The notes beneath the pieces are model-generated. The model worked only from the letters and a program-made list of their open reading frames with translations. It did not search any database and had not been told where the DNA came from. Positions 4,340 to 42,935 of a stretch of DNA of 45,116 nucleotides are shown here, one piece after another (positions within the stretch are counted from its first letter, which is position 1; every line of letters begins with the position of its first letter). The position numbers were made by a program, and so were the translations under genes. The DNA is from a virus. The stretch covers positions 1-45,116 of the IMG/VR virus record IMGVR_UViG_3300044970_002690; one strand, given 5' to 3'.

Positions 4340-4341
4340 GG

Positions 4342-5859: not shown

Positions 5860-6586
5860 ATGGAATACGCATGCGGGTGTCCCGAATCAAAGCCAGCGCG
5901 ACCAGGGCCATCCGCTCTGTCACATCCACACCGGCACCCATGTAATGCTGAAGCAGGTTCTGTTTCTCAAGAAGCGTCAGCCACGCGGTGGTCTTTTGCA
6001 GGGCCGCCAATGCCGCCCTCGTCGGATAATTGGCAGGGATGTTTTTGAACGCAATGACGTAGGAGGGAGTCCAGTGCTTAACGCCGTCCAGGAACCGCAA
6101 TGCCCCTTTGAGTCCAACCCAGGAAGGCCATTCCACAAACAGGTCCTCATTGGTAAAGAACGCATGCACTTGCTCCGATCGGCCGCCGCAGGAAATACGC
6201 GCGGCCTTCGGCTCGACGCATAGCAATTGAAAATCTACAGACACAGGCCAGTCGGACACCTGCCTGTTTGCTTCCGGTGCGCCGTTCCTGTCGGGCATCA
6301 ATGTGATGGTCTGCGGAAGCTGCAGTCGCGGATTGCGGTAGAGCTGCCACGCCATTGACGTAGCAGACTCAATTCCGAATTCATGCAGCAATGTCGGAGT
6401 GCCTACCAGACACCGCAGCACGCTCATTGCAAAATAGTCCGAGGTGGCGTCGGTGATCTTCAGGAGGTCCCGAACCGCCGTCGCCTCCTCGGAGGCAGTC
6501 ACAGGGTCAAATGGGGTGACTGGCGTAAACCACGGACTCGCGGGAACATCACCATTGACCAGCAATTGAAGTAGTTCGCATCTCAT
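5849..6586 (-). CDS. Baseplate-region protein of unknown function
   Basis: A 245-residue protein with an ATG start 13 bases after the preceding stop. The N-terminal half is helical and begins with a Cys-containing strand. The middle (about 110-160) is beta-rich with two Cys. The last 60 residues form two predicted helices rich in Ala, Leu and Gln. There is no signal peptide or membrane segment. It lies between the small tube-like protein and the hub-like protein, so it is probably a baseplate or tail-completion component. No family recognised. Confidence 0.65.
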   Translation of the reverse strand: MRCELLQLLVNGDVPASPWFTPVTPFDPVTASEEATAVRDLLKITDATSDYFAMSVLRCLVGTPTLLHEFGIESATSMAWQLYRNPRLQLPQTITLMPDRNGAPEANRQVSDWPVSVDFQLLCVEPKAARISCGGRSEQVHAFFTNEDLFVEWPSWVGLKGALRFLDGVKHWTPSYVIAFKNIPANYPTRAALAALQKTTAWLTLLEKQNLLQHYMGAGVDVTERMALVALALIRDTRMRIPYEQ

Positions 6587-6599
6587 GGTTTTTAAGAGT

Positions 6600-7130
6600 T
6601 TAGGACAAGGACGAGGTGGTCAGGCTTCCGGTGGTCAGGCCGGTGAAGCCATCCTTGCGTCCGGCTGCGGGGCCGGAAGAAGTCTCCGCGACAATACCAC
6701 CCAAGACAAACTGTTGCGTGTGAAATTTGGGGTCAATCTGCCCGACTACGAGCCCCGAAATGTACACATTGTAGGCCACCTTGCCGGGAAGGGAGAGCTG
6801 CACTGGTTTCTTCAAATTTGATGCCCGGTTCTTCTGGAACCATTTCACCACCTCCGCAAAACTTTTGCCGCCGGACTTCTCATTTCCCAGCAGGGCAACG
6901 CCCATGATGTTCACCGAACCGAAGCCGGCACCGAAGCTGTAAAGCACATGGAAATTATCAAGGGTGTTCTTGGGGACCAGCACGTCCGGGTCCTGCAGGC
7001 TGGCCCCCATGATGAGCACCGGTGCTGCGTTGCTGCTGGTGATGGGAGGATTCAGGGCATAGAAGCCCACGGAATTGCCCTGCTGCTGGAATGCGTAGAT
7101 GCATCCGCGGGATGGGAAAATGTTGGTCAT
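6600..7130 (-). CDS. Small beta-rich baseplate or tube-like protein
   Basis: A 176-residue protein. Its ATG overlaps the tape-measure stop by 4 bases (ATGA), so it is translationally coupled. The core (1-155) alternates short strands with one helix around residues 88-100 that contains Trp and an Asn-Arg pair. The last 20 residues are low-complexity Ser/Thr/Gly. Pattern and size resemble small tail-tube-fold proteins that sit at the tube-baseplate interface directly after the tape measure in many myoviruses. That role is inferred from order and predicted fold, not from a recognised family. Confidence 0.6.
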   Translation of the reverse strand: MTNIFPSRGCIYAFQQQGNSVGFYALNPPITSSNAAPVLIMGASLQDPDVLVPKNTLDNFHVLYSFGAGFGSVNIMGVALLGNEKSGGKSFAEVVKWFQKNRASNLKKPVQLSLPGKVAYNVYISGLVVGQIDPKFHTQQFVLGGIVAETSSGPAAGRKDGFTGLTTGSLTTSSLS

Positions 7131-9754: not shown

Positions 9755-9760
9755 ATCGAA

Positions 9761-10162
9761 TTACCCTCCAGTGTCGCCGGAATCAGCCTCCGAGTCGATG
9801 GCGTCTTGCAATACCCCGCCTTTTTCCAGTGCCTCGTAAAGTTTGATCAGGCTCTCGGCGCCGATGTTGTCGGGCGCCTTGGCATAGAGATCAAATGCCT
9901 TCAATTGGGCAAGCCAGCGCCCACGGGCCATTTTCCGACGCATGACGTCGGCGGCCTTTTGCGGGTCGAGCAATGAGGCGAATTGTGTCTCAATTAACAG
10001 CAGCTCGATTTGCGTCGCGGCGGCCGCGGATTTACCCACCGCCTCCAGCAAAAGCGATTCACGGATGACACTCCGCATCGCGTGCGGGTAATCGGGCCTG
10101 ACGATTTCTGGACGCCCCCCAAGGTATGCAGTCAGCATTAAACGGAACCTTGGGGACGCCAA
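9761..10162 (-). CDS. Tail assembly chaperone, downstream frame (GT-type extension)
   Basis: A frame of 133 sense codons, in -1 register to the upstream chaperone gene and open from TTG at 10162. That is the exact codon entered after a -1 slip on GGGTTTT at 10162-10168. The fusion would be 248 + 133 = 381 residues. An independent start is also possible: an ATG at 10138 overlaps the upstream stop as TAATG, giving a 125-residue protein. The product is helical and charged, with a Gly/Asp-rich tail. In siphoviruses and myoviruses the frameshifted chaperone coats the tape measure during tail assembly. The frame relation, slippery site, stem and position before the tape measure all fit. Confidence 0.75.
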   Translation of the reverse strand: MASPRFRLMLTAYLGGRPEIVRPDYPHAMRSVIRESLLLEAVGKSAAAATQIELLLIETQFASLLDPQKAADVMRRKMARGRWLAQLKAFDLYAKAPDNIGAESLIKLYEALEKGGVLQDAIDSEADSGDTGG

Positions 10163-10168
10163 AAACCC
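10117..10168 (-). promoter_or_regulatory. Programmed -1 ribosomal frameshift signal
   Basis: On the minus strand a canonical slippery heptamer GGGTTTT (10168-10162) is read in frame as GGT TTT. A 6-base spacer follows. Then comes a perfect 8-bp stem, CCCCAAGG (10155-10148) with CCTTGGGG (10124-10117), closing a loop of 23 bases that contains the zero-frame stop and the TAATG. Slip to -1 enters the downstream open frame at 10162. Spacing and layout match known G/GT tail-chaperone signals. Confidence 0.85.
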
Positions 10169-10905
10169 TGGTTGTCCTCCCGATTCACGATGTTCTCATT
10201 GCACAGCTTTTGTTTGATTTCGAAAATGCAGACGGCCTTGATGAGCATGTTCAGCCGGGCGGCGCTCATGCTTCCGATGTGGGTCTGGACTGATGCGCGG
10301 ATGGCGTCCCGCAGCGCCTCCACCGATTGCGGGGGCGTGGTGACTTCAACACGCGGGGCGAACAGAGCGTTGCCGACGGACTGCACCTGCAGCACCAGGC
10401 AATACTGCTGCATCGCGGACCACATGGACGCGGTGCCCTGGACCAGCTTCTCCTCCTCATCCTTGGCGATGGCTGCGGAAATGGCCCGCTCCATCAGGAT
10501 GGTCAGGTTGTTCACGCGAACCTTCGGCTTCAGGCTGCCCACCTGGAATTCAATATCGAAGCAAAGGTTTGAGTCATGAAGGAATGCCTTCTCGTAAATG
10601 GCCTTCTCCTGCGCGGTGACCTCAATCTTCCCGACGGACTCCTGCTTGAAGGCCCAATCAAGCATCGTGCTCGTGGTGTCCACATCGGACTGCCATTGAT
10701 CCGGGATGGGCAAATGCGTCTTTGGTGTGGGCTCTTTCTTTTCCGCATTGAGGGCCGCCCGGACTTCTGCGGTGGTGTCGTCATCCAGCTCAATGGCCTT
10801 TGGGGTTGTATCCTCGGCAGCCAGCAATTCCTGTATGGCGGCCTGGTCGATGGCGTCGTCGGGCTTTGGTTCGTGCGCGGGATCGGGTGTGTTGATGTCG
10901 GTCAT
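10138..10905 (-). CDS. Tail assembly chaperone, upstream frame (G-type)
   Basis: A 255-residue protein whose ATG overlaps the spike gene stop by 4 bases. The N-terminus (1-80) is acidic and disordered-looking, with many Asp, Glu, Pro and Thr. Residues about 85-250 are helical, with a beta segment around 115-130. The frame ends at 10138, eight codons after the slippery GGGTTTT heptamer. Most ribosomes would therefore make this short form and a minority the 381-residue fusion. It sits just before the tape measure, as chaperones of this type do. Sequence alone does not identify the family, so the call rests on gene order plus the frameshift signal. Confidence 0.75.
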   Translation of the reverse strand: MTDINTPDPAHEPKPDDAIDQAAIQELLAAEDTTPKAIELDDDTTAEVRAALNAEKKEPTPKTHLPIPDQWQSDVDTTSTMLDWAFKQESVGKIEVTAQEKAIYEKAFLHDSNLCFDIEFQVGSLKPKVRVNNLTILMERAISAAIAKDEEEKLVQGTASMWSAMQQYCLVLQVQSVGNALFAPRVEVTTPPQSVEALRDAIRASVQTHIGSMSAARLNMLIKAVCIFEIKQKLCNENIVNREDNQGFWRPQGSV

Positions 10906-13283
10906 GGTGTGAGGTATTTGGCTCCGGTTTTGAGAAATGTAAATGTGAATGGCACCGTAACCAGGTCGGTGGTCTTGTTCAAGTCCGCTCCGGATTTGGC
11001 AGACGGCTTGTGCAGGCTCTCGCCACCATTGTGCTGGCGGAATTGCGCGCCTGATCCAGGAAACGCGGAAGTGCTGCTGTCCACATTGTCGGCCGGCTTG
11101 AGTCTCTCAGATTGGTTTTCGATTTCCGTATAGGAACCCGCCCAATTCAATGCCGTCTTCCCCGGCATATCCAACCGCAGAAATTGCTGGGCCGGGCTTT
11201 CCATGAAGGTATATGGATCGGGGATGTATTCTTCCTTTTTCGAGAATGCGAATTTCAATTTGCCCTCGGCGGTGCTCTCCCAATCAACCGGCTCGGATTC
11301 CAATTCCAATGGCTCCGGTCTCCAATCGGGCTCGTCGCCCATCAGCTTGAGGATGTGGTTGTGATGCGGCTTTCCCCCTGGGCTCGGACCAGGAATCTTT
11401 GGGCCCTTGATGGCTCCGTGCGAGATCACCTGCGCGGTGTTCACCTGTGAGACCTTTAGGCCGGTGACGCCAAGCTCCGCGTATTTGCCCACTTGGAACT
11501 TCTGCCCGGCGAGCAGCATGTTGGGGCCTTTGAACAGGAAGCCCTTTCCGCGTGCGGTCGCATGGAACAGTTTCTGTGTGGTGAATTGGATGTCCTTCTT
11601 TGCATCCACGATGAATCCTCCGCTCTCCGTCTTTACCGAGAAGGAGGGATCCGGCTCCTCGGGACATTTGCCGATATCCACAAAGACGGTGCCTTTGCTG
11701 GCAACCTTCACTCCGCCTTTTGTGGTCTCAAATACAATGGCCGCCGGCCCCACAATCGGCGCCGGATCTTCCTCGGTGTTCTCGGCCTTCTCCGGCTTGG
11801 CGGTATTGGCGTCGCTCTTGAACCACATGGTCCCCCATTCACACAAGGCCTGCCATGCTGCCCTGGCTTTCAGTTTCATCCAGCCGGTCGTTGCGGAAAT
11901 CTCCACGTTCTTCCGGGCCTTCATGTAGAGGCTGCCCCCTGCAATGATTCTCACGTCCCCGGCGGCTTCCAGCGTCAGGTGTCGGGTGGCCGCCACATGC
12001 ACGTCTCCGTGCGACATCACCACGCAACTACCCGTGCCGTCCCAATGAATGATGGACCCGTCACGCATGATACGCATGCAGGCGTAGGTGTCGTAAGATG
12101 TCGAATTATCATAGCCATTGGCTTCCTCAGTGTCGGTCTGTTTGCCCCGCCAGTCCGGTGCCGGGGTCTCCTCTTCGGAAGGGACGTGATACTCCCCCTT
12201 GGTCGCCATTTGGTGGAATCTGGACAGCCCCTGGAATTGATCCAGGAATCGCGAGTATTCCCGCAGTTGGTAGGTCGTCTCAAATATCTTCCGCGGATCC
12301 TTGGGATATTTCCACAGCTTCAGGAACTCCTTGTTCAATTGGGCGTAGCCATCGACCAACACCCCGGTGGGATCCTCCGGGTGCTTCAGTTGAATTGGGA
12401 CTACGATGCGCACCTTGCGTTCGAGCACAATGTCCCCAACCGATCCAATCAGTAACGATCCATCCATATCCACATGGGCGCTGAACTTGCCAGATCGCAA
12501 AGCTGTCTTGCTCATCTCCCCGAGCACGGAAGTCGGGTCTGTCACGAATACGTGGATGAAATTGCCGAGGAAACCGATGTACTGCGAGAACCTGTTTCGG
12601 CTGGCGCTGGTCAGGTCATCCGTCAGGCTGTCGAAGTCCACACCATTGTTGTCGGCCGGGAACTTCTTGTCGGTGGGATTTACCAGACCAGCAGCCTCAT
12701 GTGGGTAGCTGGTGCCATTCCAAATCACATTCAACCGTCCGTCATTGGTGATTTGGAAATCCCCAAAGGATGAATGATGGCGGTAGCAGTCGCTCACGAT
12801 GCGCACCATGTCATTGAGGACATGGCATTCCACCTTGGCCAGCTCACCGGCGGAGAGCTTTGCGAAATGAGTCATGATCTGGATGCCCACGCTGAACGCA
12901 TTCTGCATCACAAGCTCGCCCGGTAATTGATCGCTCAGTGGATCGCATTCATCGTAGATTTGCCGTCCGGTGGCATTCTGAGAAGACAGGCCGGTGAGTG
13001 TGGTATTAAGCCCGAAGGCACCCGTGGCAGCCTGGCGGTCCCTGGTTGCGGGATCTCCGTATGGGCCTGGGACAACACCAAGAATCAAACCTGGGGAGCT
13101 ACCCATCACGACCACGCGCGCCGCCACGGGAAGGGTGTATTTGAGATGCACTCCGCTCATTGCGGCCAATGCGCCACCCACCCAGATACAGTCCTGCAGG
13201 AGCGTGCGGTCGTCCAGCGCTACGGCGTAAGTGCCGGTGTGGCGGTATTCGACGATACGCCCGAATGAGTAGGCATCACTCAT
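10902..13283 (-). CDS. Baseplate spike / needle protein (gp5- or VgrG-like)
   Basis: A 793-residue protein. Residues about 1-75 look like the OB-fold domain of gp5/gpV-type spikes: short strands, a conserved-looking Gly-rich turn and a hydrophobic strand before Val-Pro-Gly. A middle domain (about 100-400) contains mixed helices and strands. From about 400 to 480, and again from about 520 to 640, short strands with Gly/Asp/Ala turns alternate regularly, as in triple-stranded beta-helix needles. The C-terminal 130 residues are Pro- and Glu-rich. Such trimers form the puncturing tip under the tail tube. No lysozyme domain is evident. The gene lies before the chaperones and tape measure rather than after them, which is unusual. 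Confidence 0.7.
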   Translation of the reverse strand: MSDAYSFGRIVEYRHTGTYAVALDDRTLLQDCIWVGGALAAMSGVHLKYTLPVAARVVVMGSSPGLILGVVPGPYGDPATRDRQAATGAFGLNTTLTGLSSQNATGRQIYDECDPLSDQLPGELVMQNAFSVGIQIMTHFAKLSAGELAKVECHVLNDMVRIVSDCYRHHSSFGDFQITNDGRLNVIWNGTSYPHEAAGLVNPTDKKFPADNNGVDFDSLTDDLTSASRNRFSQYIGFLGNFIHVFVTDPTSVLGEMSKTALRSGKFSAHVDMDGSLLIGSVGDIVLERKVRIVVPIQLKHPEDPTGVLVDGYAQLNKEFLKLWKYPKDPRKIFETTYQLREYSRFLDQFQGLSRFHQMATKGEYHVPSEEETPAPDWRGKQTDTEEANGYDNSTSYDTYACMRIMRDGSIIHWDGTGSCVVMSHGDVHVAATRHLTLEAAGDVRIIAGGSLYMKARKNVEISATTGWMKLKARAAWQALCEWGTMWFKSDANTAKPEKAENTEEDPAPIVGPAAIVFETTKGGVKVASKGTVFVDIGKCPEEPDPSFSVKTESGGFIVDAKKDIQFTTQKLFHATARGKGFLFKGPNMLLAGQKFQVGKYAELGVTGLKVSQVNTAQVISHGAIKGPKIPGPSPGGKPHHNHILKLMGDEPDWRPEPLELESEPVDWESTAEGKLKFAFSKKEEYIPDPYTFMESPAQQFLRLDMPGKTALNWAGSYTEIENQSERLKPADNVDSSTSAFPGSGAQFRQHNGGESLHKPSAKSGADLNKTTDLVTVPFTFTFLKTGAKYLTP

Positions 13284-13467
13284 TTCCGGAATGCCACGAC
13301 AAATGCTGACGCTGATGTTCGACCCATCGGGCTGAATTCAATTCCTTCCGCAACTTCCGATACACGGCGTAGGCGGCGTCTTGTTCCTCGGGAATGCTCT
13401 GCGTCCAACGCTCGCGTGCAAGTCGCATTTCTTCGGCCATTTGTTCGAGGTCAGGTGCGGCGGGCAT
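13276..13467 (-). CDS. Small charged helical protein, unknown function
   Basis: A 63-residue protein, nearly all helix, with many Glu, Arg and Gln and three Trp. It begins 49 bases downstream of the terminator that follows the tube gene and overlaps the spike gene start by 8 bases, which implies coupling to spike translation. No membrane segment or Cys. It may help spike folding or be a small baseplate part, but nothing identifies it. Confidence 0.6.
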   Translation of the reverse strand: MPAAPDLEQMAEEMRLARERWTQSIPEEQDAAYAVYRKLRKELNSARWVEHQRQHLSWHSGNE

Positions 13468-14078: not shown

Positions 14079-16943
14079 TTAGGCGACGATGACCGTGGTG
14101 AGTGTGCGGTCCTGGTCAAAGTTGATGATGGTCTCCGCAATGTTGAACGGCAGAGCGACAACCGCGGTGAAGGTGATTTTGACGCGATCCTTGATGATGG
14201 GATTCGGGGTAATCTTCAGACTGTTGAAGCTGACCAGCAGCGGGCCGGCCTGCACCCCGTAATCGGACTGCGTATTGGCGTTCAACTCATCTTGCAGCGC
14301 ATTGCGCAGATCCACGAGTGTGGCGTTGGTGACGTTACGTTTGCCGATGTAGGCGTCGACGATGGCGTCAATTCGGAAGGACAGATAATCCGCGACCACG
14401 CCAATGGAATCCTCGTAAGCCAGCGCCCCGTTGGCGCTGTCTGTGGTGAGCTGATGACGGATGTAAATCGCGCCGCTCTCCGCATCCTGCGTGATGATCA
14501 TGGTGCCATCGGCTGCCACGGCATCCAGCGTGTCGTCGTCGTAGCGCAGGCTCATGGCCGGGGCCGCGTCGAAGGTGCTGACTTCCGTGCGGGTCAGGCC
14601 CTGCTGCGGAAGCATGGCGCAGCGTAGGCCGGCGATGTGGGCCGCCGCGTAGCGATTGGGGATGATGACGCCATTTGCGGTGCCATTCTCCGTCCAGACA
14701 TTTACGGCCCGGCGATTGCCAATGAGCTTCGAGTGGTTGCGGACGTAAAGGGCCTGACTGGCTGGCGTGTCAGCATACCAGATCTCAATGACGACCGCGG
14801 CACCCACCGGGCTTCCGGGACCGGATTGAAGGACGAGTTCGGTGGCGCTGATGACGGAATCCACCAGGTAGGACGTACCGGCGACGATGAGTTTGACGAT
14901 ATCCCCGCTGGCGAGTCCGAGCAGCGTAAAATCCACGCCGGCAGTGGCGGTGGTCACCAGCAAGTTGCCGCCACCATTGTAAGCACTGACCGTCGCCGTG
15001 ACATTGCCGGAGGTTCCGGTCCTGAGCGCGACGTAAGAGCCGGGGCTGTCCGTGCCGACGTAGCAGCGACGGAAGCGTTTCTTGGTCGGGCCGGATGTGG
15101 TGGTGCAATGAGTGGCGACGGCCTGCTGGATGGTCACATCCGTGGTCATCGGCGCAATGGCGTAAACCAGCTTGGTCGTCTGAATCTTTGCAAGCGCCGT
15201 ATTGTAATCGGCGAGCGTGGTGCCGCCGGTGCGCAGGACGTAGCCCGAGACAGCGCCAAGAGTGCCGTTGAGCATTTCATTCGCACCCATGGCCAAATCG
15301 TTATCCACGTCCACAGTGCCAAGCAGCGTCGTGATGTCGTCGGTGCTCGCAATTGCAATACGACCTTCGCCGTATGCGGGCGGCTGGAGGGAACGCTGCC
15401 AGACCGACAGGGTGCCGACGTCGTCCACAAACGGAACCCACTCATAACCCGTGGATCGGGTGCTGAGGTAATGGGACAACCCGGAGTCAATGGTCACCCC
15501 ATCTTCGAGGTCCGCAACCCATGCGACATCATCGGCCGCCGCGGTGGAAAGAATCTCACCGGTGACGGGGAGGCGGAATTCCACCTCCACGTGCGTCGCG
15601 TAATTGGTGAACACCGTGGCGTCCACAGCCGGACCATCGAGCACCACCTTGTCGAAGACTGTGGTCGAGGGCGCCTCCGCGACGCAATTGACGTAATAGA
15701 CATCACCCACGCGCATGCCGCCCTGCGGGCACACGCCGAGCGAGAGATCGAATTTCATCTGCAGACCGGAGGTGCCGAGATCGAACAGCGTGTTGTCCGT
15801 CAATGTGACCGAAGCCGGGGCATCAAGGCCCGCGGTGTCGCTGATGCGGACCACCGCACCGGTGGCGACGGGAGCGCCGGAATTGTAGGTGCCGGTCGTG
15901 ACTTCGATGAGGTAGGTGGTGTCCGCCGTGCCGGTGTAGGTTCCGGTCACGGGAGCCGTGGCAGTACTGACGCGGGTGTATTGGCTGGTGACGGTGAAGG
16001 TGTAAACCCAACCCAAAGTAAGGGAGCTAGTCGTCTCGGTGTGATCCAGCTTCACGGTGAGCCCGGCCATGATGTTGCTGGACCCGCTGTTGGTGAATGT
16101 ATGGAAACCCGCGTTTGCGCTGGTGGATGTGAGGGTGCCGCCGTAGCGTCCGCTGGCTGATGTCACCGTCACGACTGCGGTCGTGTTGTTGCCGCCGGTG
16201 GTGACCGTCAGCGTGAATGTCTCGCCGTAGGCTCCATTGAGAAGCGCGCCCTGGAGGGTGCCTTGGAAATCATCCGGGTTGGTGACGATCAGCGCCACGC
16301 CGTTGTCCTCAGTGCCAACATCCTGACTGCCGGGAGCAGTGAGGCAGGTGTAGTGCGAGGCTGCGGCCGTCGCCGGATTGTAGGTGCTGCCGCTCATGTA
16401 ACCATTATCGTTGTCCGGCGTATTGACGCCGAAGGTGGCGGCGGTCGTCTTGCCAAGCAAGCCGGTGACTGTGCGCTTGATCGTACCGTAGGCGGAGGTG
16501 ACGTAGGCGATGTCGCCGACGGCCACGGGGCGGTCTTTCAGCTTGGCGCACAGAGTGCCGCCGCTGACATCCGCTGCCGTCATCTTCAGTGTCTGGGTAT
16601 TGGAGGCATCGAGAACCTGGAAATACTCGGAGTCGCCGGTGAGGATCGTCGCGAGCGAAGCTTCGAGGCCGTTGCCGAAAAGCCGGGTGTAGGCCAAATC
16701 AGGAATCTCCGTGCCGGGTAGATTGGTGGTGACGCCCGCCGCATTGCTGTATTGCCACGGAATGACCTGGGCGCCGGAGGCCGCCGCGTACGTGTATGCG
16801 GGCACCGTCTCCTTGCCAAATCGGCTGAGGCGGTATTGCGGGCCAATGACCAGCGGATTGAGAATGGCGGTCGCCGGCGAACTGACATTGGTCAGGAACT
16901 GCTTCAGCGTGGATTGTGGGTGGACGTAGTTGGCGATCGACAT
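14079..16943 (-). CDS. Tail sheath protein
   Basis: A 954-residue contractile tail sheath subunit. The C-terminal 150 residues carry the conserved sheath features: a segment with Leu-Thr-Arg-Thr-Glu, an Ile-Arg-His strand, a Leu-Ser-Phe-Arg-Ile helix with a short Asp-Ala-Tyr-Ile-Gly motif, a helix ending in an Asn-rich loop, and a final pair of strands that interlinks neighbouring subunits. The N-terminal and middle parts (about 170-600) are Thr/Gly/Val-rich beta domains, making the protein clearly longer than T4 gp18 (659 residues). Extra domains probably decorate the outside of the tail. The tube gene follows after 30 bases. The leader lacks a Shine-Dalgarno motif. Confidence 0.9.
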   Translation of the reverse strand: MSIANYVHPQSTLKQFLTNVSSPATAILNPLVIGPQYRLSRFGKETVPAYTYAAASGAQVIPWQYSNAAGVTTNLPGTEIPDLAYTRLFGNGLEASLATILTGDSEYFQVLDASNTQTLKMTAADVSGGTLCAKLKDRPVAVGDIAYVTSAYGTIKRTVTGLLGKTTAATFGVNTPDNDNGYMSGSTYNPATAAASHYTCLTAPGSQDVGTEDNGVALIVTNPDDFQGTLQGALLNGAYGETFTLTVTTGGNNTTAVVTVTSASGRYGGTLTSTSANAGFHTFTNSGSSNIMAGLTVKLDHTETTSSLTLGWVYTFTVTSQYTRVSTATAPVTGTYTGTADTTYLIEVTTGTYNSGAPVATGAVVRISDTAGLDAPASVTLTDNTLFDLGTSGLQMKFDLSLGVCPQGGMRVGDVYYVNCVAEAPSTTVFDKVVLDGPAVDATVFTNYATHVEVEFRLPVTGEILSTAAADDVAWVADLEDGVTIDSGLSHYLSTRSTGYEWVPFVDDVGTLSVWQRSLQPPAYGEGRIAIASTDDITTLLGTVDVDNDLAMGANEMLNGTLGAVSGYVLRTGGTTLADYNTALAKIQTTKLVYAIAPMTTDVTIQQAVATHCTTTSGPTKKRFRRCYVGTDSPGSYVALRTGTSGNVTATVSAYNGGGNLLVTTATAGVDFTLLGLASGDIVKLIVAGTSYLVDSVISATELVLQSGPGSPVGAAVVIEIWYADTPASQALYVRNHSKLIGNRRAVNVWTENGTANGVIIPNRYAAAHIAGLRCAMLPQQGLTRTEVSTFDAAPAMSLRYDDDTLDAVAADGTMIITQDAESGAIYIRHQLTTDSANGALAYEDSIGVVADYLSFRIDAIVDAYIGKRNVTNATLVDLRNALQDELNANTQSDYGVQAGPLLVSFNSLKITPNPIIKDRVKITFTAVVALPFNIAETIINFDQDRTLTTVIVA

Positions 16944-19625: not shown

Positions 19626-20576
19626 CTACAGAACGTGAGTGGACTTGCTCACGCCCTTCACGTTTGCGATCGTAAGGCCGATGACCTCCATCGCTTGCAT
19701 CGTGAGGATGTGCTTCTCCTTCTTCACGTAGGTCGTGATATCCTGCAGACGATATGCACGGCCCAGGTAGCCCGGCTCGGCGAACTTGTACACCACGTAG
19801 TCGGGAACGATCGTGCTCTTGATCGTCGCGATGTGCGGGATGTTCCAAATGCTGTACTCTTCGAGCGCTTCGAGGCCCTTGAGGACAAACTTCTCCGAGA
19901 GGTCACCACCGGCTTCGTCACGACGCCATTTCAGGAATTGTCTGGACGAAAATCTATTGGTGACCCAACAGCCATTATTGAGCGACATATTCTCCAATTC
20001 GGAGATGTTGTCCACGTAGAGTTCGCGGCTGATACGGCCGAGACGCTCGAAGTTCTGCTGGAGACCCGACGCGCCGACGCCCGAGGGGCTGCCGACGATC
20101 TGGTCCACAGTGCCGAAGAACTTGCTGTCTTCCTTCGTGTGGATCTCCTTCAGCGCATTGGCCGTGGTGATCTCACGAATGTCAGTCTTGTAGTTCATCA
20201 GCTCGAACGTGTTCTTTTGGAACTCGTTGGTCTGGACGACGTAGAAGATGACAGCGAATTTTTCCCCGCGGAAGAATTCAGTATCACCGGTGTCGTCGAA
20301 GTTCACCGCGGACGAGCCGAGGATGTCACCTTCCATCTCTTCGATGATCCAGGGCTTGCTGTCCGCGTAGAGGCTGTCGCTCAGATTGCTCTGATTGACG
20401 TCCTCGAACGGAAGCACGCGGCGCTGGATTCCGTTTTCACGGAGCTTGCGGCGGATGAGGCGCGAAGAAAGGTCGGACGCCGTCTTGAGCTGCCCTTCGG
20501 GCGCGCGGACGATGGCATCGACGAGTTCCTCGTTGAGAACTTCGGGTTCCTGAATCTGGTCTTGATTGATATTCAT
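19626..20576 (-). CDS. Major capsid protein (HK97-fold), probably proteolytically processed
   Basis: A 316-residue protein placed after protease, scaffold-like and decoration-like genes and before a strong terminator, as major capsid genes are. The composition fits a HK97-fold shell protein: an acidic helical N-arm, a long alpha segment with Glu/Gln/Asn/Phe around 135-165, a Gly-rich loop near 190, and a C-terminal segment with a Leu-Gln-Asp-Ile helix and final strands. Residues 31-34 are K-T-A-S, the same motif found near the N-terminus of the internal proteins. Cleavage after Ala33 would remove an acidic N-terminal arm, like the delta domain of other phages. AAGGA lies about 13 bases before the ATG. 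Confidence 0.8.
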   Translation of the reverse strand: MNINQDQIQEPEVLNEELVDAIVRAPEGQLKTASDLSSRLIRRKLRENGIQRRVLPFEDVNQSNLSDSLYADSKPWIIEEMEGDILGSSAVNFDDTGDTEFFRGEKFAVIFYVVQTNEFQKNTFELMNYKTDIREITTANALKEIHTKEDSKFFGTVDQIVGSPSGVGASGLQQNFERLGRISRELYVDNISELENMSLNNGCWVTNRFSSRQFLKWRRDEAGGDLSEKFVLKGLEALEEYSIWNIPHIATIKSTIVPDYVVYKFAEPGYLGRAYRLQDITTYVKKEKHILTMQAMEVIGLTIANVKGVSKSTHVL

Positions 20577-26027: not shown

Positions 26028-27533
26028 TTAGGCGTAGCGAGCGTCTTCAGTTCTGGCTCGGGTCTCTTCGGCCTGCGAATGGGATTTGTCGATATCGGCG
26101 AGCGTCTTATGTGTCTGGATGGGCACACCGCCGTATTGCAGCGCCTCACGCAGGGCGAAGCGTAGCTGATTGGGATTGTGCGCAATGCGCGGGTCGCCCT
26201 TCTGCAAATCATTGGCGAGGTCCACGAGATGCTGCGGATCGGCCTCCCCGAGAATCGGGTCGGTCATGATCAGGCGCTGCAGGTTGGACACGAAGCTCAC
26301 ATCCCGGACGGCATGGTCAATTCCCTTCTGGCGAAACTTGGGTGCATATTTGCTGTCGCCGGTGGCCTTCATCTTGTCGAGGATGCCGGGCATTGCACCG
26401 ACCGTCTTGCCAACGCTCCCCTTGGGGATGAAGTCATTGATGGCGTCGATGATTTGGCTGGCCGTGTCCTTCTTCGCCGACCCTCTAGGGGTGGGCGCAT
26501 CGCGCTCGGGCTGTCGGCTGTTTCTAGGGGTGGGCGCATCGCGCTCGGGCTGTCGGGTGTTCTGCTGTCGGGTGCGCTGGGCTTGCTGCTGCATGGTTTC
26601 CACGCGACCACCTATCGAAGCAGCAGGACTCTGTTCCGTCTGGGTCCAGTCCGCGGCAGGTGCTGCATCGTCCCGCTCTCCCGTATCATCCACATCTGGG
26701 ACCTGCGGCTCTCTGGTAAATGCCAGCTTCTCAAACTCCTCCGTCTCCTGCTTGGCGAGCAGCGCATAGGCATTGTGCAATTGTAGGGCATCGGCGGCCG
26801 TCTTGATGAGCGGCAGGACATTGGTGCGATCGTGGAGCAGGCTGCGCTTGGTAGCCACCTTCGTCCAGGGCGTCAATTGCACCGAGACATGCGCTGTGGC
26901 CTGCTTGACTGCCGCTTTGAAAATCATCTGCCCCTCGGCGTCTGCCAATTGCGAGACGTCCTCTTCCATTTGGGCGAAGAAGGGCTTGTTGGCGCCGATG
27001 TATTTGGCGAGCTTGGTCACCGCAGTGCGATACAGTGCGCTCTGGTCCTCCTGCAAATCACCCAGCCGGGCGACATTGATTTCCGTGACGCGGCGGGCAG
27101 CAATGAGGGCGGCGGCCTTTTCGCCGGGAGTCGGGGGCTTTGCTGCGGGCTCCGCAAATGCCATCTTCTCAACCGGATTGTTTAGGGGCTTCTTGCCGGT
27201 CGCGCCGGACATGAAACGGGGAATTGGTTTGTGCTCCGCCGGCTTGGTGTCGGGCTTCTTGTCCTTGGCCGCCGCCGGAGCCTTGTAGGTGCCGTAGTCC
27301 GAGGCCAGCTTCACGGTATCGATGAGGGGAATTGAAGCGCCGCGCTGATCGGGGTTGTTGTCCATCCAGGCCACGGAGCGCGCCGTATTCAAAGTCATCG
27401 CCATCTTCGTGAGCTGCTCAGGGGCGAGATTGTTCTCCCGTGCGTAATTGATGAGGATGTCCTCGGCGCTGGCAGATTTCTGAATCTGAGGCAGGAGGCT
27501 TTCAATGACTTCGAGCACGCGACTTGGTGACAT
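26028..27533 (-). CDS. Large internal virion protein with K-x-A motifs
   Basis: A 501-residue protein. The N-terminus has Q-K-S-A-S at 18-22, then a helical segment with an Asn-Leu-Ala-Pro-Glu-Gln-Leu motif and an Asn-Thr-Ala-Arg helix, then Arg-Gly-Ala-Ser and a Leu-Ala-Ser-Asp-Tyr-Gly strand. That layout feels familiar from structural proteins of other large phages, from memory only. Six or more further K-x-A sites follow. A Lys/Pro linker lies near 90-140, helical domains around 140-270, and a Gln/Arg/Pro linker with a 13-residue direct repeat at about 325-355. The C-terminal 130 residues are helical. It is probably packaged in the head and processed there, by analogy. Confidence 0.6.
   Translation of the reverse strand: MSPSRVLEVIESLLPQIQKSASAEDILINYARENNLAPEQLTKMAMTLNTARSVAWMDNNPDQRGASIPLIDTVKLASDYGTYKAPAAAKDKKPDTKPAEHKPIPRFMSGATGKKPLNNPVEKMAFAEPAAKPPTPGEKAAALIAARRVTEINVARLGDLQEDQSALYRTAVTKLAKYIGANKPFFAQMEEDVSQLADAEGQMIFKAAVKQATAHVSVQLTPWTKVATKRSLLHDRTNVLPLIKTAADALQLHNAYALLAKQETEEFEKLAFTREPQVPDVDDTGERDDAAPAADWTQTEQSPAASIGGRVETMQQQAQRTRQQNTRQPERDAPTPRNSRQPERDAPTPRGSAKKDTASQIIDAINDFIPKGSVGKTVGAMPGILDKMKATGDSKYAPKFRQKGIDHAVRDVSFVSNLQRLIMTDPILGEADPQHLVDLANDLQKGDPRIAHNPNQLRFALREALQYGGVPIQTHKTLADIDKSHSQAEETRARTEDARYA
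26484..26556 (-). repeat. 34-bp direct repeat, 39-bp period
   Basis: Two identical 34-base copies (26484-26517 and 26523-26556) with a period of 39 bases, encoding a tandem 13-residue unit R-Q-P-E-R-D-A-P-T-P-R-x-S in the linker of the 501-residue protein. The identity shows a recent duplication. Confidence 0.9.
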
Positions 27534-36888: not shown

Positions 36889-37062
36889 TCAGCGCTTGTA
36901 TCCGAAAGTCACAGTCGCAGTGATCGCCAGTGCGGAGAGCCAGTAGCAGGCATCCGCCCATTTTCGGTGAAGGGCCCACCAGATGGCGGCCATGCAATAC
37001 AGCGCCATGATGATGAAATTGAAAAGGCGCGGCTCGCCGAAAATGGCCTGGATGATTTTCAC
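36889..37062 (-). CDS. Small two-helix membrane protein, GTG start
   Basis: A 57-residue product. The GTG at 37062 overlaps the phosphoesterase stop as GTGA, supporting coupled translation. Two hydrophobic helices (about 14-29 and 38-53) are separated by a short basic loop with Arg, Lys and Trp. Two-helix proteins of this size are common as phage holins or membrane regulators, but no specific signature is visible. Confidence 0.55.
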   Translation of the reverse strand: MKIIQAIFGEPRLFNFIIMALYCMAAIWWALHRKWADACYWLSALAITATVTFGYKR

Positions 37063-38105
37063 GCGCAGAAGACCGGCATGCGCTGCGCCACCATCCGCCT
37101 GGATGCGTCGAGCAGGAGGAATGTCTGCAGCGGCTCCTGGTAAGGGAAGCCGAAGCTCGCGGCGTACTCATCCCATCCTTTGAGCGATCCGTTCATCGTC
37201 GTCCGGGTGTTTGGCTCCGAGTACTGATGGAAGTGCCCCATGATGTTGTGATGGGCCTTCCGGGTCTGGTCTTGCTTGGCCTCCCATTTGTTGAGCGAGA
37301 TCGAGACACCACCCACGCCATCGTTGTATTTGACCTGATGCCCGTGGAAGCAGCGCAACCGCCAGTCCTTCAGCAAATCCACGTAATGCACATCTGCCTT
37401 GGGGATCTCCCATTGAATGTGATCCGCCTTGATGGAGCCGGCGAGTGCGGCATACACCATGGTCTCGTGTGAGGTTTCGAAATCGTTTTTGAATTGCATC
37501 TTTTTCGTCGTCCTTCCGTGATTGCCCCGCTGGCAGACGATGTGCAATTTCTTGATGCTCTTCTCCTGGGCCAGCATCCCGATGCATTGCGTGAGCAGTT
37601 CCACAGCGAACAACGATTCCTCCACCGGGCCCATGAAGTTCGTCTGCTCCAATTCAGGATGCAAATACCCAGTGACGAAATCCCCACCCAGCCACAGCAC
37701 CATCGTGGAGGCGTCGTAGCTCTTCACGGTATGACGCTGCAGGCGGATAATGCTCTCCATGCAATGCACTGCGCGTTTGCGGCAAATGGCCGGCGAGTAG
37801 CTGTTGAGGCCGCGCACCTTGGCCTTGTCGATTTTCTCTGCCACATGCCAGTCGCTCAGGCCGACGAGGGACACACCGCGGCGCTCCTCCTGCTGGGACG
37901 AGGACGCTAGCAGTGGCTGGATGTTCTGAGGTTCCATGATGGCCAGCGCCTCATCGTATTTCTCCTGCCACAAATCCGCCTCGGTGCGTGCCCGCGCCAC
38001 GCTTTTGCGCAAATCCGCAATTTGCACCTTGTTCCCCCGGAGCTGCTGCTCCAACCGGATTATTTCTTCTTCGTGCGGGGTTGGGGTGTGGATGCGTCTG
38101 GACAT
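37059..38105 (-). CDS. Calcineurin-like metallophosphoesterase
   Basis: A 348-residue protein with a two-metal phosphoesterase core. Motifs in order: Ser-Asp-Trp-His (D85, H87), Gly-Gly-Asp (D142), Gly-Asn-His-Gly-Arg (N195, H196), His-Gly-His (254-256) and Gly-His-Phe-His (290-293). An N-terminal segment (about 10-60) is charged and forms a likely coiled coil. The substrate is unknown. Phage enzymes of this fold include phosphatases and nucleases (for example SbcD- or Lambda phosphatase-like), and none can be chosen from these residues. The start overlaps the upstream HTH gene by 46 bases, which is long. There is no visible Shine-Dalgarno motif. Confidence 0.85.
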   Translation of the reverse strand: MSRRIHTPTPHEEEIIRLEQQLRGNKVQIADLRKSVARARTEADLWQEKYDEALAIMEPQNIQPLLASSSQQEERRGVSLVGLSDWHVAEKIDKAKVRGLNSYSPAICRKRAVHCMESIIRLQRHTVKSYDASTMVLWLGGDFVTGYLHPELEQTNFMGPVEESLFAVELLTQCIGMLAQEKSIKKLHIVCQRGNHGRTTKKMQFKNDFETSHETMVYAALAGSIKADHIQWEIPKADVHYVDLLKDWRLRCFHGHQVKYNDGVGGVSISLNKWEAKQDQTRKAHHNIMGHFHQYSEPNTRTTMNGSLKGWDEYAASFGFPYQEPLQTFLLLDASRRMVAQRMPVFCA

Positions 38106-38369: not shown

Positions 38370-39524
38370 TCAAAAACGACCGGTCAGCTGTGCTTTTGCT
38401 TCGGAATTGATCTCGGGGGCAAGACGCCAGCCTTTGTACTGTTTTGAGTACCCCACACAAAGTTGCCACACCGATTGAATGTGTAATTGATGTGCTTTCG
38501 CAAACTTAGTGACACCACACACCACATGTTCGCTTCCGGTAGGGTCGATGAGAATGTATGTCGGCACCGGATTCTCCGGAAGGGTCCACCCTTTATGGAC
38601 GTTGCTGTTGCCGAGCACCACCTCATTTAATCGTCCGGGCTGCAATCCGTGATTACGTGCAAAAGCGCACACATTTGTTCCTTCATAAATGTTCCCTTCA
38701 AATAGAAGCCTGAATGGTGAATTGGGTTTTCGTCGTTGCGTCACTTTGGGACGCAGACCTCGCCCGTGTTTTTTAGGGCGTAGCGGATGTGTGACCCTGT
38801 AATCGTCCAATTCCTGTCGTTCCTTCTTGAATCGCTCCCACTCGGGAGCTTCGCCAACGCGATGCCAGCCTTTGCATGAATGCCATTGCCCGTTAAGCAC
38901 ACGCCCAAGCCCCGCACGATCGAGTCCGTGCTCGCGACAAAACTGCGTTACGTTTTTACCACTGTAAACAACGCCATCTTTTTCCAAGGCAAAATCTTTT
39001 GAGTACAATTCCTTGTATCTCAGCTTTGCAGATTCCGTGCATGGTGGTTTCGATGCCTTGATGCGCGCTTTCACATCCGATGGTAGGGCGCGTAAGACCG
39101 CGGATATCTTCGATCTGGTAGCCTCCGAGTGCACAGCCCCAAGACGAGACTGCGCTTTCGGATTAGTGTTAAATCCCACCGCACGATCGTAGGATTTGAA
39201 TTTATCCAAATACATTTGCTCCCTGGCTACTGTCTCATCCTTGCAGGTCAGCTCGATTACGTGAAAAGAAAATGCCTGAATCCCGTGTTTTACAAACGCT
39301 GCCTGCAAATAAGGGGTGTGGTGTTTCCCGAGAATCAGAGCGCTACGATGCTTACGGAAGCGATCACGCAATCCGCGCTTACCCGCTGCGCTCCCTAGAT
39401 ATAGCTTACCATTCGGTTTACAGAAAATTGCGTAAATGCCGCAGGATTCAGGCAGTGCGAGCTGCGACACCGCCGCGAGATCCATTGAGATTAACGCAGA
39501 GTCTATGAGTTCTTGTGTGTTCAA
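38370..39524 (-). CDS. GIY-YIG homing endonuclease with NUMOD-like repeats
   Basis: A 384-residue free-standing homing endonuclease. The GIY-YIG domain covers about 28-110: Gly-Ile-Tyr (29-31), Tyr-Leu-Gly-Ser (42-45, Leu for the usual Ile), a basic helix with Arg53-Arg57, and Glu102 as the probable metal ligand. A NUMOD3-like segment (His-Ser-Glu-x-Thr-Arg-x-Lys-Ile) follows at about 132-140. Three repeats with Phe-x-x-x-His-x-Leu and a terminal Lys-Gly-Trp lie at about 179-220, 273-313 and 323-366 and should bind DNA. The start is TTG overlapping the polymerase stop (TTGA), or ATG at 39485. The region looks more A/T-rich than its neighbours, a sign of transfer. Confidence 0.85.
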   Translation of the reverse strand: MNTQELIDSALISMDLAAVSQLALPESCGIYAIFCKPNGKLYLGSAAGKRGLRDRFRKHRSALILGKHHTPYLQAAFVKHGIQAFSFHVIELTCKDETVAREQMYLDKFKSYDRAVGFNTNPKAQSRLGAVHSEATRSKISAVLRALPSDVKARIKASKPPCTESAKLRYKELYSKDFALEKDGVVYSGKNVTQFCREHGLDRAGLGRVLNGQWHSCKGWHRVGEAPEWERFKKERQELDDYRVTHPLRPKKHGRGLRPKVTQRRKPNSPFRLLFEGNIYEGTNVCAFARNHGLQPGRLNEVVLGNSNVHKGWTLPENPVPTYILIDPTGSEHVVCGVTKFAKAHQLHIQSVWQLCVGYSKQYKGWRLAPEINSEAKAQLTGRF

Positions 39525-42500
39525 AATTTGCCAGTCTTCTCTACATCATTGGCAAAGTTTTTTCCTATTGCGAGTCTCGGGTATGGTGAAATATTCGAAC
39601 TAAAATCGCTGTCCTCCCCTCGCATTGCCGACTCCGCCATGTTTTTTGCGACGTAGCTGCTGGTCAGTTTCGAGGCCCAGTCCGTTGACGCACTTCCCGC
39701 CGTCCGCAGACGATCCATGTCCGGCTCAAATCCCGGCGCATCATTTGCCACCGCGACTTTGTCATACCCGCGGGAAGCCAGATGCTCCGCCATCCTCGGG
39801 GTCAATTTGGTTCCGATGGTGTAATGGAGGGCCGGGGCCTGCAAATACCGACCGACGCCCTGGCCTGGATGCACACGCTCCGAATCGGCCGGCGGCACGT
39901 AGGAGGCCGCCAGCTTGTTGTAGGAGACGGTGTCATCGGGCAGGTAGTCGCCCAGGCCTTCCGCATCCGTAATGCGCACATGGTCCAATGCTCCGCGCGC
40001 CACCATCTCGGTGTGCTTCAAATCCGTCTTGATGCCGCTGTCATCGAGCAATTGCTTGAGACGGGTGGCGTAATAGCGGCGGCCCTCGCCCAATCCCCGC
40101 AGCCGGACAATGTCCCTGGGATCGACAATGCCCTCGCTCAAGGCGTCACCGGCCTCCAGCTTGTCGCCTGGCTTTACCAGCAGACCCAGGCCCTCGGGGA
40201 TGTAGTGCTCATGGTCGCCCACGTAAGCGAACTTGCCTCCCTGCGGGGCATCCTTGATGGAATGCACGGTGCCTTCCAATTCGGACACGGGGGCTTTGTC
40301 GGGGAAGGCTTCGGGGCTTTGGACGAATGCATTGATGGCGTTCATTCCCGAGAACTCCCTCTTTTTACCGGCGACTCCTGCGGTGTTTTTCACAATCAAT
40401 CCGTTCTCCAAAACGAACAGCTCGTCCGGATGATCCACTGTGATGTCCCAGCAATGGTGGTTGCCGATCTCAGTAATTGATTCGCGCTTGGCGCGGTAAA
40501 ATAGCTCGGGATTCCGCAATTCGTAATTTGCATTCTCCAGTAGGTCTTTTGTCCTTGGGCCTTTGCACCCCGGAATTGGAGGCAGCATGCCTACCAGCTT
40601 CTGAATCTGATCTTGTCGTGTAATTGCAAATGCCCACGCATCATGTTTGTAGCTGCGAGTTCCCGCTTTTGCCGTGTTGGTGATTTCCGAAGTGTACACA
40701 CAAAGACGAAGCTCCAACAGACGTCGCAAATCCTCTAACATCCCGCGACTCGTGGAGGCGAAGCTGATGAAAACATGGCCGGCTTTGTTTTTTCCAATGC
40801 TACCGTCCGTGGCAATAAATCCTGCGAGCAAAGCAGACACAGAGGCTTTATCCCAATACAAGGCCTGCACGGGCACCCGCTTCTCGTGGGCATACTTGTT
40901 CGCAATTCCCCACTCCAGCATCTTCACCTTCATTGGGTGCCGGGTAGCGGTCTTCACCATCTGCCCAGTCGTTGCGCTGCGGTCTCCCCACCCTTGAGTC
41001 GATGTGTGGACTATTGCGTAATCATGGCTGCGCTTTCTTTTCTTCAGTGCGAGTCCGGCAGTTGCCAGCGGGGTTTGCAAATCCGCAATGAGCATTGGAT
41101 CCGCACACGAAAAGCGAATGGACGCATCCGCATGATTTTCAGAATCCCAGCGAATACCGTCGCCGAGCAGTGCTCCACACAGGACAGCCAATGGTTCGTG
41201 CGTTTCCAGTGCCGCATCAATCTTACATTCTACAGGCAGCACTGCCGCAATGTTTTTATGGGGATAACCCGCAGGAAGTTTGCAGGCTAAATAATTTTCC
41301 GGACATCCGAAGCCGTATTTTCCTGCATATTTTTTGCGCAGATACTCACCCGTCGTTTTCTTATTGCTCAGCACGATGTGCGTGTCCGTGCACTCCAAGG
41401 TCAGCCGGCGTTTTGTCTGCCCTTGCTTGTAGATATAGCGCTGAACCGGCTGAATGCCTTGATCCCATACGTATTTCACTTTCACTGGGAAAGTGGCGCC
41501 TGTGATATCAGAACCCAGGACCCATTCGCCGGCTTTGATCTCCTGAATCGGCTTCACGGACAAATCGGCCATTCGCACCATGGTGCCTTCCTTGAGGCAA
41601 TGTTTCACGTTCAGCGCAGATTGGGTAATCGGCTCGCCAATTGAGTTTGCGGCGGTGATGCCTGCCGTACGTCCAATACCATACAGGTGCCCACCATCCA
41701 TTCCGCCCACGCTTTCCGATGCGATACCCTCCGGAGAGTCATCAGTGATTGGGCTGTGGGCAATGACGTAGGGCACCTTCTTGCGGCGCAACTCCGCCAG
41801 CACCGGCGTTGTGATCATGGTGCCGGCGCTGAAGCCTCCTGCGGGCTTGGCGAGCACTCGGTATTTGAGGCTGGGATCTTCAATGTCCAGATCCACGCCA
41901 TTGTCCGAGCCGGTGCTTTTCCTGGTGGTATTGAGCGTGGAAAGCAGGGACGACAGTTGCTTGGAGAAGTCACCGCCGACGGCCGTGGCTTTTTTCGTCG
42001 AAATAACGGCACTACGCGCCCCGTAGGTGCTGGCCAGGAATTCCGCCGGACGCAATCCCTCCGCATGCGAGTGCGTCGCGTACATCTCAATTGGCGTACC
42101 ATTCCCATCCTGGAATATCCCTGGTGCCGAAATCATCGAGTTCAATTGCGGCGCCTTGCCTCGGGCTCCGCTCAATACCGAGTAGGCAATGTTGTTGCCG
42201 CGGCGCAGGCCCTCCCGCTGCGTCTCCCTGGTGACATGCTCATTGGTGTCCTGCCAGATCTTCATCCGCTTCGTGCGGAACTCGGCGTCGGTATTCGCGC
42301 CTTTCTTTGCTTGGGCAATTCGCGCCTCCATCCCTTTGAAGATGGAGTCCTTGTCGATGACAGGCTTGAGATCTTCCAGCGTCAGGGATTCGCCCTGGTC
42401 GTAGCTGGCATTGCGCCCTACGTCCGCAATCTTCCCGATGATGCTGGAATACTCCTCGGGATGCTCACGCGCAGCACGGGCCAGCAATTGGTTGAAGCCC

Positions 42501-42577
42501 TTGGCGTCGTAATTGCGGCCGTAGTCCCGCAGGCCGTGCGGGAGCTGGTGTTCGAGAAGGAGTCGAATGCCCTTCAA
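39521..42577 (-). CDS. RNA polymerase beta' subunit, C-terminal half, with intein
   Basis: A 1018-residue precursor; excision of the intein leaves 613. Residues 136-195 match the beta' bridge-helix region: Ser-Gly-Ala-Arg-Gly-x-x-x-Gln, an Ala/Gly-rich turn, Glu-Gly-Leu and Ser-Thr-x-Gly-Ala-Arg. Residues 303-326 match the trigger loop (Ala-x-Ser-Ile-Gly-Glu-Pro-x-Thr-Gln...His). After the intein come Asp-Ile-x-Arg-Leu-Arg-Gly, a Tyr-Ala-Thr-Arg segment and Lys-His-x-Glu, all typical of the beta' C-terminus. The N-terminal half with the catalytic Asp-Phe-Asp-Gly-Asp is absent and must be a separate gene elsewhere, as in jumbo phages with split subunits. The start is TTG with a perfect AAGGAGG five bases away. 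Confidence 0.85.
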   Translation of the reverse strand: MKGIRLLLEHQLPHGLRDYGRNYDAKGFNQLLARAAREHPEEYSSIIGKIADVGRNASYDQGESLTLEDLKPVIDKDSIFKGMEARIAQAKKGANTDAEFRTKRMKIWQDTNEHVTRETQREGLRRGNNIAYSVLSGARGKAPQLNSMISAPGIFQDGNGTPIEMYATHSHAEGLRPAEFLASTYGARSAVISTKKATAVGGDFSKQLSSLLSTLNTTRKSTGSDNGVDLDIEDPSLKYRVLAKPAGGFSAGTMITTPVLAELRRKKVPYVIAHSPITDDSPEGIASESVGGMDGGHLYGIGRTAGITAANSIGEPITQSALNVKHCLKEGTMVRMADLSVKPIQEIKAGEWVLGSDITGATFPVKVKYVWDQGIQPVQRYIYKQGQTKRRLTLECTDTHIVLSNKKTTGEYLRKKYAGKYGFGCPENYLACKLPAGYPHKNIAAVLPVECKIDAALETHEPLAVLCGALLGDGIRWDSENHADASIRFSCADPMLIADLQTPLATAGLALKKRKRSHDYAIVHTSTQGWGDRSATTGQMVKTATRHPMKVKMLEWGIANKYAHEKRVPVQALYWDKASVSALLAGFIATDGSIGKNKAGHVFISFASTSRGMLEDLRRLLELRLCVYTSEITNTAKAGTRSYKHDAWAFAITRQDQIQKLVGMLPPIPGCKGPRTKDLLENANYELRNPELFYRAKRESITEIGNHHCWDITVDHPDELFVLENGLIVKNTAGVAGKKREFSGMNAINAFVQSPEAFPDKAPVSELEGTVHSIKDAPQGGKFAYVGDHEHYIPEGLGLLVKPGDKLEAGDALSEGIVDPRDIVRLRGLGEGRRYYATRLKQLLDDSGIKTDLKHTEMVARGALDHVRITDAEGLGDYLPDDTVSYNKLAASYVPPADSERVHPGQGVGRYLQAPALHYTIGTKLTPRMAEHLASRGYDKVAVANDAPGFEPDMDRLRTAGSASTDWASKLTSSYVAKNMAESAMRGEDSDFSSNISPYPRLAIGKNFANDVEKTGKF
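40385..41599 (-). mobile_element. LAGLIDADG intein in the beta' trigger loop
   Basis: A 405-residue intein (precursor residues 327-731) starting with Cys327 and ending with Asn731, followed by Thr. Splicing blocks are visible: Cys-Leu-x-x-Gly-Thr at the start, Thr397-x-x-His400 in block B, and Cys-Trp-Asp-Ile-Thr-Val-Asp-His-Pro and Asn-Gly-Leu-Ile-Val-Lys-Asn at the end. The penultimate residue is Lys instead of the usual His. Two LAGLIDADG helices, Leu-Cys-Gly-Ala-Leu-Leu-Gly-Asp-Gly (466-474) and Leu-Leu-Ala-Gly-Phe-Ile-Ala-Thr-Asp-Gly (583-592), indicate a complete homing endonuclease. It sits directly after the residue aligned with the trigger-loop histidine. The DNA has more A/T-rich stretches than the flanking exteins. 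Confidence 0.9.
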
Positions 42578-42582
42578 TTGGT

Positions 42583-42589
42583 CCTCCTT
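42583..42589 (-). promoter_or_regulatory. Perfect ribosome binding site that sets a TTG start
   Basis: AAGGAGG on the minus strand, 5 bases before the TTG of the RNA polymerase gene and overlapping the stop codon of the gene before. Few genes in this window have such a motif, so it supports TTG at 42577 as the real start. Confidence 0.8.
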
Positions 42590-42935
42590 ACCGGTTCACA
42601 CCCCACCCGCTCTGAATTGCCACCGTGACCGTGCCACCGGTGGCATTATCCCGCTCGACGCGCACGTATGGGTAAAGGCCCGGGTCCAGGACGACGATGG
42701 CGCTGGTGGTGATGTCGGCTCCGATCTGTTGCCAGTTCTCGCTGGCAGAATCCAAATCCTGCAGGACGCTGACATACAGCTTCACGGTGGCTCCGGCGGT
42801 ATTGATCACCTGGAACGTATTGAGGCCGAATTGATCCCGGCGAATCACGGAGCTGTACGGGGAGGCGGCCGCTGCTGCGGTGAGCAGCATGACGATTGGG
42901 GAATTGTCGCTTTTGGGATCGAAGGTGAGTGTCAT
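42588..42935 (-). CDS. Small beta-rich protein, unknown function
   Basis: A 115-residue protein. Short hydrophobic strands alternate with Thr, Gly, Val and Ala turns; an Ala-rich stretch lies at 19-25. A Trp sits near 68 and the end contains a Trp-Gly-Val segment. There is no Cys and no clear membrane helix. It lies between a small membrane protein and the polymerase gene and could be a virion-surface or decoration protein. No family recognised. Confidence 0.6.
   Translation of the reverse strand: MTLTFDPKSDNSPIVMLLTAAAAASPYSSVIRRDQFGLNTFQVINTAGATVKLYVSVLQDLDSASENWQQIGADITTSAIVVLDPGLYPYVRVERDNATGGTVTVAIQSGWGVNR

Follow-up and report, generated by a model that had tools for sequence, protein, structure and literature searches.

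The stretch of DNA analysed here, hereafter the window, spans 45,116 nucleotides of IMG/VR record IMGVR_UViG_3300044970_002690 and is a 45-kb fragment of a phage genome. The remainder of this genome is contained in a second record, IMGVR_UViG_3300044715_001611 (185,656 bp, hereafter G001), which is 99.99% identical to the window over the compared stretch. On the minus strand of the window, a gene located at positions 39521–42577 starts at a TTG codon behind a sequence that reads as a strong Shine-Dalgarno motif (AAGGAGG, 42583–42589, minus strand) and encodes a precursor of 1018 aa, of which 613 aa would remain after predicted protein splicing. The product matched Pfam RNA_pol_Rpb1_5 (E = 5e-13) and NCBIfam rpoC_TIGR (E = 9e-43), the latter from profile position 554 on, i.e., over the C-terminal half only, and a profile of 25 homologues matched solved beta' chains with E values down to 3e-90. 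Alignment with E. coli beta' showed that the ORF starts near residue 570 (TTVGR at 572), beyond the NADFDGD motif at 458–464, and that trigger-loop and bridge-helix residues are kept. The AlphaFold2 model contains a 36-residue bridge helix (residues 177–212; 41942–42049, minus strand) and a trigger-loop helix (residues 305–328), two features that characterize multisubunit (two double-psi-barrel) RNA polymerases, and the best 50 PDB matches listed for it all come from bacterial RNA polymerases, beta' chains of E. coli for the most part. Profile, alignment and model therefore agree with the preliminary description, which had read the gene as a C-terminal half of beta' with bridge-helix and trigger-loop motifs but without the catalytic Asp-Phe-Asp-Gly-Asp. 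The gene upstream (42588–42935) was rightly called unrelated, as it lacks polymerase similarity and both beta' profiles match only the two beta' halves across the 185.6-kb genome. Furthermore, four other IMG/VR records, all of them complete and near-identical contigs, contain the gene, hereafter beta' C, with 0–1 nucleotide differences, and it is therefore not an assembly artefact. A scan of genome contigs with the beta' C profile returned no bacterial relative and hence no lead to the host.

The end of beta' C is overlapped by a free-standing GIY-YIG homing endonuclease gene (38370–39524, minus strand) that was not found at the loci of relatives. A second, distant relative of this endonuclease (24% identity) is encoded elsewhere in the genome (G001:71683–72537; L021:11683–12537). 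An exonuclease-like gene (phrog_284; 37059–38105, minus strand) lies downstream of the polymerase gene. The window also encodes the major capsid protein (19626–20576, minus strand), homologous to gp226 of Salmonella phage Arash, and a homologue of the Arash structural protein gp236 (14079–16943, minus strand) that is probably the tail sheath judging by its C-terminal sequence. Another gene of the structural region contains a 39-bp unit repeated in tandem (26484–26561).

The trigger-loop intein of beta' C

A class-1-like intein with a LAGLIDADG endonuclease, overlooked in the preliminary description, accounts for 405 of the 1018 residues of the beta' C precursor. The N-extein (aa 1–326; 41600–42577, minus strand) comprises the rim/F-loop region, the bridge helix and the N-terminal arm of the trigger loop up to ...ITQSALNVKH. 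It is followed by the intein (aa 327–731; 40385–41599, minus strand), which starts with Cys and ends with Lys-Asn ahead of a Thr at +1, and by the C-extein (aa 732–1018; 39524–40384, minus strand), which resumes with the remaining trigger loop (TAGVAG...) and the beta' C-terminal region. The insertion point is in the trigger loop, directly past the residue aligned with E. coli beta' His936. This position was fixed by alignment to two intein-free relatives (L035 and L061) and to L054, which bears an intein at the same site, and the joined exteins, ITQSALNVKH-TAGVAG, match the relatives devoid of an intein there.

The intein matched LAGLIDADG_3 (PF14528, E = 6e-12; 40649–40840, minus strand) and Hint (E = 8e-7), and contains two LAGLIDADG-type helices with acidic residues (LCGALLGDG and LLAGFIATDG), as in endonucleases of this type. 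Among the class 1 hallmarks, it has Cys1, a block-B TxxH motif, the C-terminal Asn and an accepted +1 residue (Cys, Ser or Thr), in the order C...TDTH...N/T, where the slash marks the junction. The penultimate His of class 1 inteins is absent, as the intein of the window ends with Lys-Asn and those of its relatives with Ser-Asn. A phmmer search against PDB sequences returned no match for the intein, and the intein part of the AlphaFold2 model is of low confidence.

The polymerase gene set and the metal-loop intein

G001 has an exact 95-bp overlap of its ends and was therefore treated as a circular, essentially complete genome. Its polymerase consists of five ORFs, each open and ranging from 242 to 1401 codons: beta-N (102974–107179), beta-M (107176–107904), beta-C (131503–133407), beta' N (162107–165493) and beta' C (1698–4754), with beta' N located about 22 kb upstream of beta' C. 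G001 thus encodes both large subunits of a multisubunit RNA polymerase. The preliminary description had placed the N-terminal half of beta' in a separate gene, had suggested looking for beta elsewhere in the genome, and would have considered the gene a remnant had no other subunit gene existed. The N-terminal half does have its own gene, beta is present as three ORFs, and beta' C is not a lone remnant. The alpha subunit (PF01193) is absent from G001, in a search for which the positive control worked, and no second polymerase set was found among the ORFs of G001, as the beta' N and beta' C profiles and beta-C gave one match each. Two sigma-like genes were found, one with a Sigma70_r3 domain (44564–45322) that is homologous to Arash Gp10, and one with a Sigma70_r2 domain at 63790.

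Two proteins encoded in these regions carry additional domains. beta-N (G001:102974–107179; L012:2974–7179) has an extension of ~1,090 aa, present in no other fetched locus, that contains a 2H phosphoesterase with two HxT motifs and a DUF6624 domain, and that scored 27.3 bits against the anti-CBASS family Acb1 of Pfam (cut-off 27). If the extension is packaged together with the polymerase, an anti-defence activity could be delivered. The other protein, of 1031 aa and encoded just upstream of beta-C (G001:128174–131269; L013:8174–11269), begins with a GNAT acetyltransferase domain.

beta' N also contains an intein. Its precursor has 1128 aa, and the magnesium motif is interrupted by 507 aa that contain LAGLIDADG_3 and Hom_end domains (NLDFDGN/C...VVFD/TMNAHV). 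The gene in which the preliminary description expected Asp-Phe-Asp-Gly-Asp thus exists, but the motif itself reads DFDGN at the intein junction. An Asn at the position of the third Asp (codon 523, AAT) was found only in G001, a single record, whereas DxDGD is conserved in 31/31 relatives with a beta' N half, as well as in Arash, D181 and TM30. Furthermore, the metal-loop intein lacks the block-B His, the penultimate His and the C-terminal Asn, and ends with Phe-Asp. Inteins that end with Asp are able to splice by the usual route (PMC4031507). Placing the splice junctions elsewhere so as to regain DFDGD in G001 was rejected, as residue 1 would be Asn and residue +1 Asp, neither of which is a nucleophile. 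The AlphaFold2 model of beta' N has a mean pLDDT of 42, too low to be of use. One relative (G004, 52% identity in beta-C) carries an intein at the same metal-loop site (DHDGD/S...VVQD/TMNVHV), and in another (G024) the metal-loop intein is spread over two overlapping ORFs, with a Shine-Dalgarno sequence present. The second ORF of the latter pair (L131:4004–6106 and 6078–13349) has its own ribosome-binding site, and the arrangement may reflect either a natural split intein or a frameshift.

Despite DFDGN, the homology to multisubunit RNA polymerases is beyond doubt. Given this altered motif and the splicing residues missing from the metal-loop intein, catalytic activity should not be assumed. 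The same two features would be expected of a degenerating or catalytically crippled remnant that has lost the third metal-binding Asp and can no longer splice its metal-loop intein, and whose subunits persist as virion proteins or because the decay is recent. Four zinc-cluster cysteines (columns 222, 279, 286 and 289), nearly invariant in relatives, are also replaced in the beta' C protein of the window (41600–42577), but the relatives L062 and L065 lack zinc cysteines as well. Moreover, each of the five ORFs remains open, the residues of the trigger loop and bridge helix are retained, and the divergence of beta' N does not exceed that of beta' C or beta-C, which is evidence against simple decay. 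The loss of the third Asp itself comes down to one base (GAT to AAT), seen in one record from a metagenome, and could be an error or a polymorphism. We therefore regard such a remnant as unlikely. It also seems rather improbable that the DFDGN site is the functional form, i.e., that a virion polymerase has its metal loop and trigger loop on separate genes, both made by splicing, and works with an altered metal triad or with an activity set by the atypical Asp-terminated intein.

Intein sites and gene layouts in related phages

A profile scan of IMG/VR yielded 41 loci, and beta' N and beta-C are also carried by 31 of the 33 records searched. In the tree, from which mReC sequences (multimeric-RNAP-encoding Caudovirales) were left out, the window, L035 and L061 form one clade (100/100) apart from the Arash/D181 clade; E. 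coli and a Rhizobium phage are joined by long branches, and we claim no deep placement. The five intein-bearing beta' C rows require five changes on this tree, and L054, which has an intein, and L036, which has none, are close sisters. Therefore, inteins come and go in these genes.

Ten intein sites were found in beta and beta' over about 36 relatives: beta profile positions of about 405, 595, 785, 817 and 928 (the N-terminal junction at 595 being placed only approximately), the metal loop (1375), two sites in the bridge helix and two in the trigger loop. Junctions are mostly C...N/S or N/T, the metal-loop inteins being atypical. Two of the ten sites, one in the metal loop and one in the trigger loop, are occupied in this one phage. 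The count excludes the inserts near beta positions 575–590 in G016, G025 and G033, which have no intein termini. A split intein at site 785 in G032 was also rejected, as ORF1 contains the whole intein and the break that follows resembles a frameshift. The polymerase of this lineage is an intein hot spot.

Splicing could also act as a control switch, with the precursor remaining inactive until excision is triggered by conditions met during infection or packaging. Other inteins are known to splice conditionally, and both intein positions imply that the unspliced subunit must be inactive. However, the inteins are scattered and missing from close relatives (L036 vs L054), a pattern that fits mobile parasites and not a conserved switch, making this explanation very improbable.

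The layout of the polymerase genes also varies, between one beta+beta' ORF and five pieces. In L064, a single phage ORF of 1993 aa (L064:3822–9803) covers both beta and beta' and has an intact DYDGD, and in L065 beta-C is fused to beta'. These two loci lie outside the split clade (95/92), on long branches.

Sequence comparisons indicate that, among isolates, this phage is closest to Salmonella phage Arash and Vibrio phage D181 rather than to phiKZ. G001 and Arash share homologues of the polymerase, terminase, portal, capsid, protease, sheath and sigma genes, which places this phage in the Arash/D181 lineage. In Arash (OQ632216), beta' is split at the same place and beta' C (Gp216) shares 28% identity with that of the window, but beta and beta' N are fused in one gene (Gp206) with an intact ADYDGD and no inteins, whereas this phage has five polymerase ORFs and two inteins. 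Vibrio phages D181, D148 and D69 (187 kb) share 34% identity over the aligned beta' C pieces and have beta in two genes separated by a homing endonuclease gene; unlike in this phage, beta-C is fused to beta' N and no inteins were seen. The GIY-YIG gene at the end of beta' C and the D181 endonuclease gene between the beta pieces fit, without proving, the view that mobile elements break these genes.

The polymerases of phiKZ and AR9 are also devoid of alpha, with beta and beta' each in pieces (PMC7598289), but these phages have jumbo genomes with two polymerase sets and no sigma. phiKZ gp74 matched beta' C weakly (E = 2e-8) and gp80 gave no profile match, therefore the tree has no phiKZ branch. 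A phiKZ-type (Chimalliviridae) two-polymerase system, as proposed in the preliminary description, would account for a beta' split past the double-psi barrel, a split beta and the missing alpha, but is scarcely credible for a phage with a single set, two sigma-like genes, a genome of ~185.6 kb (<200 kb), similarity to gp74 alone and hallmark genes in common with Arash. The mReC phages (PMC7481178) resemble this phage in that they are tailed-phage contigs with beta and beta' distinct from the cellular ones. Their capsid family, PF07068, was not recognized here, as the capsid protein of the window has no Pfam match and that of Arash matches PF05065 weakly.

Proposed assembly of the enzyme and its significance

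Taken together, the sequence data show the gene to be the C-terminal half of beta', which probably belongs to a complete alpha-less phage polymerase and whose trigger-loop intein would have to splice out to give a working enzyme. beta' C is made as the 1018-aa precursor, as its open frame and Shine-Dalgarno sequence indicate, and class 1 splicing, predicted from the motifs (Cys1, +1 Thr, C-terminal Asn) and the site, would excise the intein to yield ...TQSALNVKH-TAGVAG.... Judging by the gene set, the 613-aa product would then pair with beta' N, itself freed of the intein in the metal-binding loop, and the two beta' halves would join the three beta pieces into a core, with a phage sigma-like protein guiding it. 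The parallel with Arash suggests that the enzyme is most likely packaged, injected and used to transcribe the early genes. The intein endonuclease would spread the intein into intein-less trigger-loop alleles of related phages, making the intein a mobile element lodged at a site where precise excision alone would leave a working enzyme.

The preliminary description had asked whether this polymerase is packaged or transcribes late genes. In Arash virions, Gp206 yielded the largest number of spectra (3516), Gp216 came fifth in the list (1210 spectra) and the sigma protein Gp10 was also present (467 spectra) (PMC10585845). The authors warn that enzymes may co-purify, and metabolic enzymes were also detected in the virion preparations (PMC10585845); therefore, packaging of the polymerase in Arash is not proven. 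The abundance of the Arash orthologues nevertheless leans the answer towards the virion, and packaging, with a role in early transcription, is the most likely case for the polymerase of this phage.

Alpha-less split phage polymerases were already known (PMC7598289, a review that does not mention inteins), as were deep-branching polymerases of tailed phages (PMC7481178, in which the word intein is absent). Inteins have been described in the archaeal RNA polymerase subunits A' and A'' (M. jannaschii, N. pharaonis) and in eukaryotic RPB2 (PMC1635734); they likewise lie at conserved positions in the two large subunits, but in cellular enzymes. In the jumbo phage MIJ3 (PMC6892783), an intein or endonuclease is also tied to a split phage polymerase gene, but the split intein is in DNA polymerase B, not in an RNA polymerase. 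Keyword searches of the open-access literature, with subscription papers mostly outside their scope, did not turn up any account of inteins in multisubunit RNA polymerases of phages. It has long been proposed that mobile elements fragmented the polymerase genes of phages (discussed in PMC7598289), and this idea becomes directly testable in this lineage, given its intein hot spot and its layouts ranging from a single 1993-aa polypeptide to five pieces. The spliced enzyme would be a natural RNA polymerase that has to assemble its active site by protein ligation.
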